Assembly (NCBI GenBank): GCA_905479945.1
Contig: CAJQOP010000037.1
Coordinates: 1 to 64,000 of the forward strand
Reading direction: 5' to 3'
DNA: 64,000 nucleotides
Source: an uncultured Glaciecola sp.
GTDB taxonomy: Bacteria; Pseudomonadota; Gammaproteobacteria; Enterobacterales; Alteromonadaceae
The notes below the pieces were generated by a model. That model saw only the letters and a program-made list of their open reading frames with translations. It had not been told where the DNA came from and did not search any database. Both the position numbers and the translations under genes were made by a program. Positions 23 to 49,168 of the stretch are shown here, one piece after another; within the stretch, counting starts at the first letter, position 1; each line of letters opens with the position of its first letter.

Positions 23-463
23 ATGCCAATGCAACCACTAGAAACACAACAGGCCTGCGCAATCTTAAATGAGATCATGGAATATGAATTAGCGGGTGTC
101 GTTAGATATACTCACTCAGCGATGATGGTCACTGGCCCTTACAGAATTCCAATCGTTGCATTCTTAAAAGAGCAGGCAACAGAATCACTACTTCATGCTC
201 AAGGAGCTGGAGAATTAATTGCAGGACTTGATGGCCACCCTAGTCAAAAAATTGCAAAGATTGAGGAAACAGGAAGACACGCAATCAAAGATATTTTAGA
301 AGAGAGTTTAGGTCATGAGCTGCATGCAGTTAGTCTTTATAAAAAGCTCTTAGAAGAGGTTGAAGATAAATCTATATATCTTGAAGAATATGCTCGAGGA
401 ATGATTGGAGAAGAAGAACAACATTCACTTGAATTAAAAAGAATGTTAAAAGATTACGGGTAA
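23..463 (+). CDS. Ferritin-like (bacterioferritin-type) protein
   Basis: A 146-residue, mostly helical protein that fits a four-helix-bundle ferritin-like fold, probably an iron-binding or iron-storage protein of the cytoplasm. Candidate metal ligands are Glu22 in the first helix, Glu54 with His58 in the second, and the E-x2-H pair Glu131/His134 near the C-terminus. Family members are usually about 150-160 residues, so it looks full length. An AAGGAG ribosome site at 10-15 precedes the ATG. It faces the DUF1289 gene tail to tail. Its arginine codons are mainly AGA, unlike the bulk of the window, and it lies in the left-hand segment that may come from another genome. The ferritin-like fold is fairly sure; the exact subfamily (bacterioferritin or another ferritin-like group) is not. 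Confidence 0.75.
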   Translation: MPMQPLETQQACAILNEIMEYELAGVVRYTHSAMMVTGPYRIPIVAFLKEQATESLLHAQGAGELIAGLDGHPSQKIAKIEETGRHAIKDILEESLGHELHAVSLYKKLLEEVEDKSIYLEEYARGMIGEEEQHSLELKRMLKDYG

Positions 464-470
464 AAAATAA

Positions 471-908
471 TTACAGTTTTTTAAAGTATCTTTCATGATG
501 AGCTTCAGATAATTCTAAAAGCTCTTTATTAATAACATCTTTAATAGTTGTTGGATCGTAAGACTTCAAACTTGCAATACCAAACTGCTGTAAATCTAAA
601 GCTTGAGATCCAGCGGCCCTTAGTAAATCAAAAATCCATGTAAGCGGATCCATAGAATTATTATAGTTAATTGCATTTTCTTTGAGTTTAAGTTGGAGTA
701 ACTCTTGATCTAGGATATTAAATCTATCCTTTAAAATAAGGACCTTAAATTTCTCTAATCGATCATTAACAAGTGCCCTTTCGTCTTGAGAGAATTTTGG
801 CCATCCAATGATTTCATGCACAAACCTTTTGCAGCCTTTGCAGACATCATCGCCATATGTTGTTGAACAAATGCCAAGACATGGAGTGGTTGATCTATTT
901 TTTTGCAT
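471..908 (-). CDS. DUF1289 family protein with cysteine cluster
   Basis: A 145-residue protein of the DUF1289 family (YdhL-like). The N-terminus carries the family signature: four cysteines at about residues 10, 14, 23 and 26, in the pattern PC-x3-C-S-T-T-Y-G-D-x2-C-x2-C-K-R-F. These probably bind a metal or an iron-sulfur cluster. The remaining 110 residues have no motif I recognise and are longer than in many DUF1289 proteins, which can be only 60-90 residues. It is divergent from acnB, with about 95 bases between the two starts. No function is established for the family. Its codon use (AGR arginines, AT-rich) matches the suspect left segment. Confidence 0.75.
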   Translation of the reverse strand: MQKNRSTTPCLGICSTTYGDDVCKGCKRFVHEIIGWPKFSQDERALVNDRLEKFKVLILKDRFNILDQELLQLKLKENAINYNNSMDPLTWIFDLLRAAGSQALDLQQFGIASLKSYDPTTIKDVINKELLELSEAHHERYFKKL

Positions 909-1002
909 ATTTAGCCAAATAATAACTCATTTTCAAATAAAATCTTTGATTTAGTAGAAGCCTTTTGGCTATAGGAGTAAAATGAGCCACGGAGAAAATC
1001 AT

Positions 1003-3588
1003 ATGTTAAACGAATACAAAGCACACGTAGACGAAAGAGCAAATCAAAATATTCCACCTCTTCCATTAGATGCTGATCAAACAGCACATCTAGTTGATCT
1101 TTTAAAAGCAGATCATGAAGAATCGGAATTACTATTACATCTACTAAAAGAAAGGGTTCCAGCTGGTGTAGATCAAGCTGCTTATGTAAAAGCCGCCTTC
1201 CTTTCAGATATAACAACTGGAAAAGCTGATAGCCCTCATATATCAAAAGTTGATGCCGTTCAGATTCTTGGGACTATGCTGGGTGGCTATAACATCCAAC
1301 CTTTAATTGAGTGTTTAAAGATTGATGGCTTGGGAAGTGAGGCTGCTAATGCACTAAGCAAGACTCTATTAATATTTGATGCTTTTAACGAGATCTTTGA
1401 ATTATCTAATACCAACGAGCATGCTAAAAGAGTTATTGATTCTTGGGCTGAAGGAACATGGTTTACAGAAAAGTCTGAAATTCCAGATCAAATCAAATTA
1501 ACGGTTTATAAAGTTCCAGGAGAAATAAATACTGATGATTTATCTCCTGCAACAGATGCATGGTCAAGACCAGATATCCCGCTTCATGCCTTAGCTATGT
1601 TTAAAATGCCAAGAGAAGGTATAGAAAGGCCTCTTGAAACTATTGAAGAATTAAAAGAAAAGGGAAACCCTTTAGTGTTCGTTGGTGATGTGGTTGGTAC
1701 AGGTTCTTCTAGAAAATCAGCAACAAACTCAGTTCTATGGCACATGGGTGATGAAATACCTTGTATACCAAACAAAAAAGAAGGTGGATTCTGTTTTGGT
1801 GGAAAAATTGCTCCTATCTTTTTTAATACTTTAGAAGATTCTGGTGCCTTCCCTATTGAGTTAGATGTTTCTAATATGGAAATGGGTCAAGAAATTATCC
1901 TTGAGCCACATAATGGCAGAGTATTGGATGCAAATACCAATGAAGTAATTACAACGTTTGAATTAAAAACTAATGTCATTCTAGATGAAGTAAGAGCTAA
2001 TGGAAGAATTCCATTAATCATTGGAAGACAGCTTACAGATAAGACCCGTGAAGCTTTGGATCTTGAACCTACAGATGTTTTTAAAAGACCTGATGATGCA
2101 GATGGCTCTGATAAAGGTTACACGTTAGCTCAAAAAATGGTAGGAAAAGCTTGTGGAGTTGAAGGAATTAGACCTGGAACATACTGTGAGCCAAGAATGA
2201 CCACAGTAGGCTCTCAAGATACAACAGGCCCAATGACTAGAGACGAATTGAAAGATTTGGCTTGTTTAGGTTTCACTGCGGATCTGACTATGCAGTCATT
2301 CTGTCATACTGCGGCTTATCCTAAGCCTGTCGATATCGATACTCAGCACACACTACCTGATTTCATTATGAATCGCGGCGGTGTTTCACTGCGACCAGGT
2401 GACGGTATCATTCACTCTTGGTTGAACCGTATGTTGTTGCCAGATACAGTTGGTACGGGTGGCGATTCACATACACGCTTCCCAATGGGTATTTCATTCC
2501 CTGCAGGTTCTGGCTTAGTTGCATTTGCAGCTGCTACGGGTGTTATGCCATTAGATATGCCTGAATCAGTATTGGTTCGTTTTAAAGGCAAAATGAAGCC
2601 AGGGATTACGCTTCGTGACTTGGTTCATGCCATTCCACTATATGCTATCAAGCAAGGTTTGCTAACAGTCGCCAAGAAAGGCAAAGTCAACGCGTTCTCT
2701 GGCCGTATTTTAGAAATTGAAGGTCTTGAAAATCTAACAATAGAACAAGCCTTTGAATTGTCAGATGCTTCTGCGGAACGCTCTGCAGCGGGTTGTACGA
2801 TAAAGCTGTCTGAAGATTCAATTTCTGAATATCTAAATTCAAACATCACTATGCTACGTTGGATGATTAACGAAGGTTACGGTGATCCTAGAACATTAGA
2901 ACGTCGCGCTCGTAAGATGGAAGATTGGCTAGCTGAACCTTCCTTAATGAAAGCAGATGCTGACGCTGAATATGTCGAAACGATCGAAATTGACTTGGCA
3001 GAAATTAATGAGCCGATTTTATGTTGCCCGAACGATCCTGATGATGCTAAGACACTATCTGAAGTTGCTGGTGATAAAATAGATGAAGTCTTTATCGGGT
3101 CTTGTATGACCAATATTGGCCACTTCAGAGCAGCTGGTAAGTTGCTTGAGCAATTCAAAGGTACTTTACCAACTCGTTTATGGATGTCTCCACCAACTAA
3201 GATGGATGAAGCTCAGTTGATGGAAGAGGGCTACTTTAGTATTTACGGTAAAGCTGGCGTTAGAATGGAAATGTCAGGCTGTTCATTGTGTATGGGTAAC
3301 CAGGCACGTGTCCTTGCAGGTGCGACGGTATTGTCTACCTCAACCCGTAACTTCCCCAACCGTTTAGGTGATGGCGCTAACGTTTACCTATGTTCAGCTG
3401 AAATGGCTGCTGTGGGAGCGATAGTTGGTCGTATTCCAACGGCTGCGGAATATATGGAATATGCTAGCAAAATAGAGTCAATGAGCGGTGAAGTATTCCG
3501 CTATTTAAACTTTGATCGTATGCCTAAATTCATGAAAGCAGCAAAAGCGGCGAAAGATAATATTATCCCAACCTTAAATATTGCTTAG
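1003..3588 (+). CDS. acnB: Aconitate hydratase B (mosaic 5'/3' halves)
   Basis: AcnB interconverts citrate and isocitrate through cis-aconitate in the TCA cycle, using a [4Fe-4S] cluster. The 861-residue product matches the usual AcnB length of about 865. The order is an N-terminal HEAT-like domain, the swivel domain (about 165-380), then the catalytic aconitase domains. Cluster cysteines are Cys701 (GSCMTN) and Cys760/Cys763 (GCSLC). I prefer the ATG at 1003 because it gives the typical MLNEYKAHV N-terminus with GGAG eight bases upstream. An in-frame ATG at 982 with AGGAG four bases upstream is the alternative. Oddity: up to about 2,240 the gene uses AGA/AGG for 15 of 16 arginines, and after about 2,370 it uses CGN for 19 of 22. 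The protein stays intact across the switch. Confidence 0.95.
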   Translation: MLNEYKAHVDERANQNIPPLPLDADQTAHLVDLLKADHEESELLLHLLKERVPAGVDQAAYVKAAFLSDITTGKADSPHISKVDAVQILGTMLGGYNIQPLIECLKIDGLGSEAANALSKTLLIFDAFNEIFELSNTNEHAKRVIDSWAEGTWFTEKSEIPDQIKLTVYKVPGEINTDDLSPATDAWSRPDIPLHALAMFKMPREGIERPLETIEELKEKGNPLVFVGDVVGTGSSRKSATNSVLWHMGDEIPCIPNKKEGGFCFGGKIAPIFFNTLEDSGAFPIELDVSNMEMGQEIILEPHNGRVLDANTNEVITTFELKTNVILDEVRANGRIPLIIGRQLTDKTREALDLEPTDVFKRPDDADGSDKGYTLAQKMVGKACGVEGIRPGTYCEPRMTTVGSQDTTGPMTRDELKDLACLGFTADLTMQSFCHTAAYPKPVDIDTQHTLPDFIMNRGGVSLRPGDGIIHSWLNRMLLPDTVGTGGDSHTRFPMGISFPAGSGLVAFAAATGVMPLDMPESVLVRFKGKMKPGITLRDLVHAIPLYAIKQGLLTVAKKGKVNAFSGRILEIEGLENLTIEQAFELSDASAERSAAGCTIKLSEDSISEYLNSNITMLRWMINEGYGDPRTLERRARKMEDWLAEPSLMKADADAEYVETIEIDLAEINEPILCCPNDPDDAKTLSEVAGDKIDEVFIGSCMTNIGHFRAAGKLLEQFKGTLPTRLWMSPPTKMDEAQLMEEGYFSIYGKAGVRMEMSGCSLCMGNQARVLAGATVLSTSTRNFPNRLGDGANVYLCSAEMAAVGAIVGRIPTAAEYMEYASKIESMSGEVFRYLNFDRMPKFMKAAKAAKDNIIPTLNIA

Positions 3589-3675
3589 TTGCTAACTGGT
3601 CGGTGAAAACCAGGCCAGCAAGAGCAGCGAATATTAATACATTCGGTGCTCGATGCTTCATTTTAGGAACAAATT

Positions 3676-3821: not shown

Positions 3822-4346
3822 ATGAATATAAGTACAAAAATGATTTTTCGAACTGCGCTGGCTTTTTTGCTAGTCTCGCTGCTTTCTATGCAGGTATTCG
3901 CAAAGAGTCAGCTAGATGACGACCTAACTGCGGAAGAGTTAGCTTTGCTAGCAGATGATAGTCGTATAAAGGTTTCCTTTGATTCAAAAGCACTAGAAGT
4001 AGAGTTTGCAGATTCATTTGATGAAAGAGCACTTGGCTTGATGCATCGCAAAACCCTTTGTGAAGATTGCGGCATGCTGTTTCAATTTGATAGTGAACGT
4101 TTCGCGAGTATTTGGATGAAAAACACCTTTGTCCCCCTTGATTTAGCCTATATAACCGTTGATGGAAGTATAGTGGATATTCAGGCTTTAAAGCCGCATG
4201 ACCTTACTGCGGTGAAATCGCCAAAACTTGTGCTTTATGCCTTGGAGATGAACCAAGGTTGGTTTGCAAAAAACGGCATTAAAGTGGGAGATCGCGTTTC
4301 CATTGAAGGAAGAGTTAAACAGCCTAAAAGAAAAACAGCTAAGTAA
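3822..4346 (+). CDS. DUF192 family exported protein
   Basis: A 174-residue exported protein. Residues 1-27 form a clear signal peptide: a basic start, a hydrophobic core, and an A-x-A-like end at Phe-Ala. The DUF192 domain spans about 50-165. Visible family features are the E-R-x2-G-L-M-H-R-K segment near 67-77 and I-W-M-K-N-T near 99-104. Members are small periplasmic or secreted beta-rich proteins of unknown function. The C-terminus is lysine-rich. AAAGG upstream supports the start. The next gene, lysC, begins 125 bases downstream without an obvious terminator, so read-through is possible. I cannot assign a role. Confidence 0.8.
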   Translation: MNISTKMIFRTALAFLLVSLLSMQVFAKSQLDDDLTAEELALLADDSRIKVSFDSKALEVEFADSFDERALGLMHRKTLCEDCGMLFQFDSERFASIWMKNTFVPLDLAYITVDGSIVDIQALKPHDLTAVKSPKLVLYALEMNQGWFAKNGIKVGDRVSIEGRVKQPKRKTAK

Positions 4347-4471
4347 GGCAGTACTTTTCGTGAACAAGGTGATTTTGCTTAGATACTCAAAATATTTCAA
4401 GCAGAAGCTTGAGCATATCAGTGACGAGCTTATCAATATTAATAAAACAAAAACAGTAAGAGATAATTCAA

Positions 4472-5821
4472 ATGAATTCAGCGTTGAATGTCGCCAAATT
4501 TGGCGGAACAAGCGTAGCAACTTATCAAACGATGCTCAGCTGCGCGAAAATAGTTGCTGATAACCCACAAACAAAAATCGTAGTAGTAAGTGCCTCCGCA
4601 GGTGTTACCAATCATTTAGTCGCTCTTGCCAATAGTGCACTAACAAGTGGTCAAATAGAAGAACTTGTCGGCCAAATCAATGATGTCGAGCTTGCTATCG
4701 TGCAACAGCTAAAGCAAGCTGATGAAGTAAACGAAAAACTCAATGTTTTACTAGAAGAGCTAACTGAGCTGGCTAAACATGAAGAGATAAACTTTAGAGA
4801 TGACTTAAAAGACGCATTGCTTTCTATGGGAGAGCGCATGTCATCTCTGCTTTTTGCCGCTGTTTTAAGAGAGTTTGATGTTCCTGCTAGTAACTTCGAT
4901 GTAAGGAAAGTTCTGCGCACTGATTCATTGTTCACTCAAGCAGTGCCTGAACTGTCTACCATTAAACAGCTTGCAAAAAACCTACTAATACCTGAACTAG
5001 CGCATTCAGTCATCGTTACCCAAGGTTTTGTTGGTGCTGATGAGCAAGGTCGGACAACAACACTTGGGCGCGGTGGCTCAGATTTCACTGCTGCCTTATT
5101 GGCAGAAGCCGTAGATGCGCAAACTTGTGAAATATGGACTGACGTTATCGGTGTTTATACGACCGACCCGCGCATCACAGATAAGGCTCGCCCATTGTCA
5201 GAACTCAGTTTTGAAGAGGCTGCTGAAATGGCTACTTTTGGCGCAAAAGTACTGCATCCAGCAACAATGGAACCCGCGTTGAGGCAAAATATTAGAGTAT
5301 TTGTTGGTTCAAGTCGTGAACCTGAAAAAGGCGGTACTTGGATTATAAAAAACTGCGAGCATGAGCCCTCTTACAGAGCAATAACGCGACGTAAAGACCA
5401 AGTTATGGTCACGGTTAAAACACCAAAAATGATGTACGCACAGGGTTTTTTGCAGCGCGTTTTCACTATCATTGCCAAGCATAAACTGTCTGTTGATTTA
5501 GTGACTACGTCAGAAATATCAGTGTCATTCACGCTCGACAACCCACCAAACTCGGTTTCAGAGAAAATGAATAAAGAAACACTTGCTGAATTGACCACTA
5601 TCTGTGATGTGACGGTAGAGCAAGGTTATGATGTTGTGACTGTTGTTGGTAACAATATGCACAGTGCGGCGGGGGTCTCTAGTCGCATATTTGAAGCAGT
5701 AGCGGGCTTTAACCTAAGAATGATTTGTTTTGGTGCAAACCCTCATAATCTTTCTTTTGTAGTGAGCAATGCAGACAGTGACGATGCTGTGAAAGTTTTG
5801 CATCGGAACTTGTTCGAATAG
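4472..5821 (+). CDS. lysC: Aspartate kinase III
   Basis: This enzyme phosphorylates L-aspartate, the first step towards lysine, threonine, methionine and diaminopimelate. At 449 residues it has the same length as E. coli LysC. The kinase domain (about 1-290) holds the KFGGTS nucleotide-binding motif at 9-14, TTTLGRGGSD, and the TDV.G.YTTDPR segment. Two ACT domains (about 300-449) carry the ISVDL..TSE-type effector site, consistent with lysine feedback. It is a monofunctional kinase with no homoserine dehydrogenase domain. The 125-base leader is too short for a lysine riboswitch, and I see none. A strong terminator follows at 5842-5876. Confidence 0.93.
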   Translation: MNSALNVAKFGGTSVATYQTMLSCAKIVADNPQTKIVVVSASAGVTNHLVALANSALTSGQIEELVGQINDVELAIVQQLKQADEVNEKLNVLLEELTELAKHEEINFRDDLKDALLSMGERMSSLLFAAVLREFDVPASNFDVRKVLRTDSLFTQAVPELSTIKQLAKNLLIPELAHSVIVTQGFVGADEQGRTTTLGRGGSDFTAALLAEAVDAQTCEIWTDVIGVYTTDPRITDKARPLSELSFEEAAEMATFGAKVLHPATMEPALRQNIRVFVGSSREPEKGGTWIIKNCEHEPSYRAITRRKDQVMVTVKTPKMMYAQGFLQRVFTIIAKHKLSVDLVTTSEISVSFTLDNPPNSVSEKMNKETLAELTTICDVTVEQGYDVVTVVGNNMHSAAGVSSRIFEAVAGFNLRMICFGANPHNLSFVVSNADSDDAVKVLHRNLFE

Positions 5822-8095: not shown

Positions 8096-8122
8096 TTATC
8101 GGTAATTTGTGTTTTTTCTTTA
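8096..8122 (-). promoter_or_regulatory. Sigma-28 (FliA) promoter for the chemoreceptor
   Basis: Read on the minus strand there is TAAA (8122-8119), 15 bases, then ACCGATAA (8103-8096). The FliA consensus is TAAA-N15-GCCGATAA, so only one base of the two core elements differs. The site overlaps the apaH stop codon and leaves an untranslated leader of roughly 115 bases before the chemoreceptor ATG. Confidence 0.75.
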
Positions 8123-8926
8123 AGCCTGCTGAGAAAAATATTTAGAAGTTTCGATACAGTAGAGTGTCATTGTTTTATCCCACACATATCCTGTATCTAA
8201 GGCAATGATGCTCTGGGTTTTGGTTTCACCCATTAGTGAAGCCCAGTGGCCGAAAATAAGTACTTTATTTTTTTTCAGGTTGGAATTGGGGCAAGCGAAC
8301 CAAGGTTTAAGGTTTTTGGGGGCTGATTCAGGATGGCATTTAGTTTTGAATTCAAGTTCCTTACCTTGCAAAAAACGCATTCTAGTAAAGGCGTTTACGA
8401 CAAATCTAAGTCTTTCCTCGCCTTCTAATTTATCATCCCAAATCGTTGGGTTGTTGCCGTACATATTTTTTAGAAATTTTGCTCTCTTTGGACCTGACAA
8501 AGCTGTGCTGACTTCTTCTGAAAGTGCCAATGCTTTTTTAGTAGACCACGCAGGGTAGAGGCCTGCATGAGAAATGAAGTGATTTTTTGTTGGGTTAAGA
8601 GCTAGTTTTTTTGTACAGAGCCAATCAATTAGTTGATTAAAGGAGCTGTGGTTAATTAGAGGTGCTAATTTATCGAGAGGTTTTGGCGTGCTAATTCCGT
8701 ATGCCATGGCGATAAGGTGTAAATCATGATTACCTAAAACTGTATCAAAGTGAGAAGGGCCTAAGTCATTCAGATACTGCAATGTTTCTAGCGACTGAGC
8801 GCCTCTTGCAACCAGATCACCTACCGCCCAAAGCTTGTCTTGTTTTGGGTTAAAGTTTGCTGACTTGAGAAGCTTTCGCATTCCTTTGTAGCAGCCTTGA
8901 ATATCCCCAATGACAAAGTTTTTCAT
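8120..8926 (-). CDS. apaH: Symmetrical bis(5'-nucleosyl)-tetraphosphatase
   Basis: This enzyme hydrolyses diadenosine tetraphosphate (Ap4A) to two ADP. At 268 residues it is near the E. coli ApaH length of about 280. The metallophosphoesterase motifs appear in order: GDIQGC (about 7-12), GDLVARG (about 36-42), GNHDLH (about 65-70), and FGHWASL near the C-terminus. The first motif has Gln where many phosphoesterases have His; this GDIQG variant is common in the ApaH family. It is the last gene of the lptD-surA-pdxA-rsmA-apaG-apaH series on this strand. A 49-base gap separates it from apaG. Confidence 0.95.
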   Translation of the reverse strand: MKNFVIGDIQGCYKGMRKLLKSANFNPKQDKLWAVGDLVARGAQSLETLQYLNDLGPSHFDTVLGNHDLHLIAMAYGISTPKPLDKLAPLINHSSFNQLIDWLCTKKLALNPTKNHFISHAGLYPAWSTKKALALSEEVSTALSGPKRAKFLKNMYGNNPTIWDDKLEGEERLRFVVNAFTRMRFLQGKELEFKTKCHPESAPKNLKPWFACPNSNLKKNKVLIFGHWASLMGETKTQSIIALDTGYVWDKTMTLYCIETSKYFSQQA

Positions 8927-47588: not shown

Positions 47589-48179
47589 CTAATTAAGAGG
47601 AATAAGTTCCATAACTCTTATAACTTTCGTCACACCATCTACATTTCTGGCGGCTTCGACCGCCGCTGAAGCCTCTTTTTTTGTAAGTAATCCCATAATA
47701 AATACTTCACTGTCTTCAACCACCAATTCAAGCTTGAAAAGTGGAATATCTTCGTTCGCTAACATAATTGTTTTGATCTTCGAAGCTAGCCAAACATCAT
47801 TCATTGTTGATGTTGCTGCAATAGGCTGGCCTAAGCGAACCTGGTTATGAACTTTAAGCACGTTTGTTGTTTTATTCGCCTTACTTTCAACATCCGTTAT
47901 CATGGTTTGCAAAGGTGCTTGTCCCGTTAACAGGACCTGACCATTGTAAACGTCAACACTGACCGCAGCGGTGTCCTTAATCAGTGGAATATCATTAATA
48001 GCGCTTCTAACTCTGCTCTGTGTGGTTTTATCGTCTATTTGTGTGCCAACCGTACGCCTGTCGTTAGCCGACACCGTGGCTGCAGCTCCTGCTGTGCCTA
48101 CTGCCAGTAAAGTACATCCGGTTTGCATAAACGCAACGAAAATAATCAAAACCGTAGCGAGTTTTCCCTTGCTTAACAT
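47589..48179 (-). CDS. dolP: BON-domain outer-membrane lipoprotein DolP
   Basis: DolP (YraP) is an outer-membrane lipoprotein that supports envelope integrity and BAM function. From the ATG at 48179 it has 196 residues: a lipoprotein signal with lipobox ending MQTGC (Cys near 22), then two BON domains (about 50-115 and 125-192). Upstream in-frame codons to 48209 would put extra residues before the signal peptide and are less likely. It closes the lpoA-yraN-diaA-dolP cluster, whose order is conserved. Confidence 0.92.
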   Translation of the reverse strand: MLSKGKLATVLIIFVAFMQTGCTLLAVGTAGAAATVSANDRRTVGTQIDDKTTQSRVRSAINDIPLIKDTAAVSVDVYNGQVLLTGQAPLQTMITDVESKANKTTNVLKVHNQVRLGQPIAATSTMNDVWLASKIKTIMLANEDIPLFKLELVVEDSEVFIMGLLTKKEASAAVEAARNVDGVTKVIRVMELIPLN

Positions 48180-48195
48180 AATCCTTTCTCTTTTT

Positions 48196-49168
<973 letters not shown>

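Follow-up and report, generated by a model that had tools for sequence, protein, structure and literature searches.

Genes at the locus

The window (the whole stretch of DNA analysed, 64,000 nucleotides long) begins at base 1 of contig C37, which has 85,856 bases and belongs to a host assembly of 4.03 Mb in 132 contigs, 90.5% complete and 0.51% contaminated. At its left end are found a ferritin-like gene (23-463, plus strand; Pfam PF00210, E 8.8e-16), a DUF1289 gene (471-908, minus strand; Pfam PF06945, E 1.8e-15) and acnB (982-3588, plus strand). The acnB gene encodes 868 amino acids, in which the Pfam domains Aconitase_B_N and Aconitase_2_N are located at residues 11-161 and 173-380, respectively. 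DUF192 and aspartate kinase (lysC-type) genes follow on the plus strand (3822-5821; Pfam PF02643 and PF00696). Comparison with relatives has revealed that this DNA comes from two sources, which meet inside acnB; each side has the gene order of the lineage it comes from, and the foreign DNA extends to the contig end.

The left block (1-2241, no strand assigned) starts with the first base of the contig and is of SAR86 type, SAR86 being a marine lineage only distantly related to the host. It aligns with L033, a locus of the SAR86 MAG AK_MB155 (CALSQM010000004.1), in which the ferritin-like gene, the DUF1289 gene and acnB stand in the same order and orientations as in the window. Proteins that by eye are near-identical to the ferritin-like and DUF1289 products are encoded at the corresponding places of L033, 7043-7483 and 7490-7927. 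The N-terminal half of AcnB (982-2241, plus strand) shares 98% protein identity with L033, the top match among the best 80 of 591 relatives. The next eight matches of these 80 reach 73-90%; seven of them are titled SAR86 and the other, L035, is titled only Gamma proteobacterium, its SAR86 label being taken from its position in the tree. The remaining rows lie at or below 67%, including another SAR86 sequence, L087, at 62%. L033 differs from the window in that its acnB stays of SAR86 type and is followed by other genes, whereas the acnB of the window turns to host type.

Nucleotide identity between the window and L033, taken per 100 bases, is 81-92% over 1-600 and 93-100% over 601-2200; past 2200 it falls to 86% and then 81%, and it is 55-78% over 2401-3600. 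The step near position 600 may reflect strain variation within SAR86 or a further join between two SAR86 sequences, and at its very start the window resembles L034 and L035 roughly as closely as L033. The SAR86 DNA of the left region matches the host assembly at the contig start alone.

From 2287 to 3588 (plus strand) acnB is of host-genus type by congener identity, arginine codons and tree placement. An acnB orthologue is present in 10 of the 12 other genomes of the genus, G001 and G006 giving distant matches only. The AcnB of the window shares with these ten congeners 56.5-59.5% protein identity in the N-terminal half and 86-96% in the C-terminal half (2374-3588). Against the congener G002, nucleotide identity per 100 bases is 52-70% over 1001-2100, 77% over 2101-2200 and 68-91% over 2201-3600. 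The two halves also take different places in protein trees, which were built from 86 of 91 rows (L044, L065, L066, L094 and L109 were left out as incomplete): with the N-terminal half the window is sister to L033 (support 100/99), and with the C-terminal half it falls inside the congener clade, where the group of the ten congeners and the window has a support of 100. DUF192 and lysC stand to the right of acnB in all ten congeners, matching the window.

Codon usage of acnB

In the left part of acnB (982-2241) 15 of the 16 arginines are encoded by AGA or AGG (AGR), the sole CGN codon being a CGT at 2047, as compared to 3 of 22 in the right part (2374-3588). The Fisher p value for this contrast is about 1e-6, a rough guide because the cut-point came from the finding itself. 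The share of GGA among the glycine codons drops from 14/33 in the left half to 1/36 in the right half, with GC3 going up from 0.21 to 0.35. Both genes on the left side of acnB use AGR for 4/5 and 6/7 of their arginines, while the listed genes of 2374-64000, pooled, use it for 229 of 845. The arginine and glycine shifts and the style of the left genes had been described earlier from the sequence alone: the arginine counts given in that preliminary description are exact, the move of glycine away from GGA and the AGA-rich style of both left-hand genes are borne out, and the acnB reading frame is indeed open throughout.

The controls were the acnB genes of the ten congeners with an orthologue and ten SAR86-type genes, making 21 genes with that of the window. 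Among the congeners AGR accounts for 0-3 of 14-17 arginines in the N-terminal half and for 0-4 of 20-24 in the C-terminal half, so that CGN is preferred in both halves of all ten. In the SAR86-type genes the corresponding counts are 10-15 of 15-17 and 14-19 of 17-20, and AGA/AGG is preferred in both halves of all ten. Codon style thus sorts the lineages correctly in 20/20 control genes, and the gene of the window is alone among the 21 in changing its style on the way. The codon break in acnB is the mark of two lineages joined.

Position of the junction

The break had been placed at 2,240-2,374 and, for the case of a metagenomic contig, had been taken as a chimera at a conserved gene, with allelic replacement offered for the case of an isolate; the former is the reading now favoured. 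That interval does contain the join, which is now narrowed to about 2,240-2,286 (no strand assigned) by a likelihood scan and by site-by-site sharing. The separate comparison of both halves with relatives, which had been advised as a check, gave best matches that do not lie in one genus, the left ones being in SAR86 and the right ones in the host genus.

The likelihood scan assumed two sources and used identity settings of the analyst's choice; with three congener references it peaks at about 2244-2250, and the supported range is 2233-2286. In the site-by-site comparison (2095-2384 against the ten SAR86-type genes and the ten congeners), the base of the window at 2239 is common to all ten SAR86-type genes and to no congener, that at 2256 to four congeners and to no SAR86-type gene, and those at 2287-2288 to all ten congeners and to no SAR86-type gene. 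A few sites point the opposite way, and the join is therefore assigned to an interval and not to a single base: 2259 and 2284 agree with L033 and with none of the congeners (with 1/10 and 5/10 of the SAR86-type genes, respectively), and on the left side of the join 2106 and 2142 agree with one and three congeners, respectively, and with no SAR86-type gene.

The join falls 40 residues past the Aconitase_2_N domain. Around it the window and G002 are 77-85% identical (2101-2400), in comparison to 52-70% over 1001-2100. When L033 and G002 are taken as proxies for the parents, no exact run that they share in acnB exceeds 18 bases, the longest being found at about 2196; some other proxy pairs have their longest run, of up to 25 bases, in a different part of the gene.

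Contig end and the native left flank

Since the contig stops at its base 1, which the foreign sequence reaches, host sequence is present on the right side only. In the congeners the left neighbours of acnB include genes whose products we take, from their sequences, to be a sugar dehydrogenase, an AEC-type transporter and an AMP ligase. The sugar-dehydrogenase-like gene stands to the left of acnB in 10/10 congeners, and its product in G002 is 47-78% identical to those of the other nine; a protein search of the host assembly with it gave only a 37% match. The matches in the host assembly were 26% for the transporter and 46% for the ligase, which is weak evidence because these two genes are kept in only 5/6 and 4/6 of the congener regions (about 15 kb), respectively.

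A second N-terminal half of acnB was not found in the host assembly with a congener protein as query, nor did the flank and N-half searches find the native N-terminal half there as a loose contig end. When the 20 kb that precede acnB in G002 were searched against the host assembly, 29 matches resulted (40 of 51 candidates scored); the long ones belong to the far part of this DNA and lie on contigs C69, C22 and C33, and within the same scope the last 3.5 kb before acnB had no match. The native left flank seems to be missing from the host assembly, as a misjoin predicts, and the 90.5% completeness could by itself be an alternative explanation for this.

A family-wide search with the first 3,588 bases of the window, in a collection of one genome per species, scored 384 of 395 genomes with one candidate each, and 327 of the 384 gave a match. 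Among the matches listed, no other genome has the left genes beside acnB, the smallest match start outside the own genome is 1,023, and the junction is found in no independent genome.

Origin of the hybrid acnB

The contig is most probably a chimera from metagenome assembly, in which a foreign end has been joined inside acnB; we put the probability of this at roughly 0.9. About 2.24 kb of DNA from the SAR86 cluster, carrying the ferritin-like gene, the DUF1289 gene and the N-terminal half of acnB, would have been fused to the contig of the binned bacterium, probably in a part of acnB where the similarity of the two lineages exceeds that in the remainder of the N-terminal half. The join would have been made by assembly software and not in a cell, which presumes that both organisms were present in the sample and that the assembly is a metagenomic bin. 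This reading is favoured because the best relatives of the two halves differ in lineage and the assembly is fragmented, and also because the foreign stretch touches contig base 1 and the listed genomes are without the left genes beside acnB. It accounts together for the foreign identity, the position at a contig end, the apparent loss of the native flank and the fact that no listed relative has a counterpart. Against it, the join keeps the frame, the hybrid protein passes the cut-off of the acnB model, the exact runs common to the parent proxies are short (18 bases close to the join), and the searches of the host assembly did not turn up the native N-terminal half as a loose contig end.

According to the passages of PMC8172020 on chimeric sequences, k-mer assembly can hold paths that match no real genome, chimeric sequences in a mock community always lay at contig ends, and composites of close strains require large identical stretches together with similar abundance. 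The chimeras between species described there resemble the present case in that one contig carries two organisms and the foreign one occupies its end. The example given in these passages joins the highly similar genomes of Salmonella enterica and Escherichia coli, whereas here the parents are Gammaproteobacteria of distant lineages, whose similarity is confined to the conserved gene, and the large identical stretches which the same source (PMC8172020) requires for close-strain composites are not seen in the window.

The second explanation is a real allelic replacement or insertion, in which SAR86 DNA recombined into acnB and a hybrid AcnB is made by the cell. The reading frame open across the join, the location of the join in a conserved stretch, a score of the hybrid above the acnB equivalog cut-off (TIGR00117, 1460.3 vs 1287.2 bits) and exact runs between the parent proxies which are short for an assembly join would all agree with it. 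However, the foreign run goes on to the contig end and never returns to host sequence, and in the family-wide search (384 of 395 genomes scored) no genome among the matches listed has the left genes beside acnB. Moreover, recombination would require a crossover between genes whose identity across most of the foreign DNA is only about 52-70% (SAR86-type vs congener DNA over 1001-2100), which is low for homologous recombination. Recombination is thus an unlikely source of the hybrid acnB, with perhaps one chance in eleven left to it. It is slightly more doubtful still that a marine gammaproteobacterium truly possesses a hybrid AcnB with SAR86-derived N-terminal domains and with the ferritin-like and DUF1289 genes acquired alongside, and the origin which this would imply, very distant parents having crossed over within a conserved stretch, is equally doubtful.

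That acnB is a native gene with no foreign DNA and merely odd codon usage, for example from expression-linked bias, is hardly credible: a few other genes of the window are also high in AGR (47589-48209, 7/9; 8120-8926, 5/7), but protein identity, nucleotide identity, tree placement and gene order all switch at one place and the codon shift is absent from acnB of all ten congeners, and natural codon variation within the gene was ruled out by this identity switch together with the ten congener and ten SAR86-type controls.

With the chimeric assembly as the preferred reading, the hybrid AcnB would be no real protein, and as a likely assembly error the hybrid acnB is unfit to be taken as biology. 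The hybrid gene is a problem of assembly quality. The genome assembly seemingly carries about 2.24 kb of another lineage along with a hybrid core enzyme, and both trees of AcnB and searches for gene transfer could be misled by this. A codon break within one conserved gene can flag a chimeric join, and relatives can then place that join within about 50 bases.

Additional observations

In a scan of arginine codons, no AGR block like that of 1-2241 was found over the final 26 kb of the contig; several reading frames at 60-68 kb use AGR for 8/16 to 10/17 of their arginines. The gene at 47589-48209, which lies inside the contig and whose AGR share is high for the window, was possibly acquired. G001 (L013), G006 (L014), G005 (L015) and G007 (L016) each encode a divergent protein of AcnB type, which shares 32-33% identity with the AcnB of the window, and it is this protein that forms the best AcnB match in G001 and G006. 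Those of L013 and L015 (905 and 908 amino acids, respectively) score above the NF006690 cut-off and below the TIGR00117 acnB cut-off.
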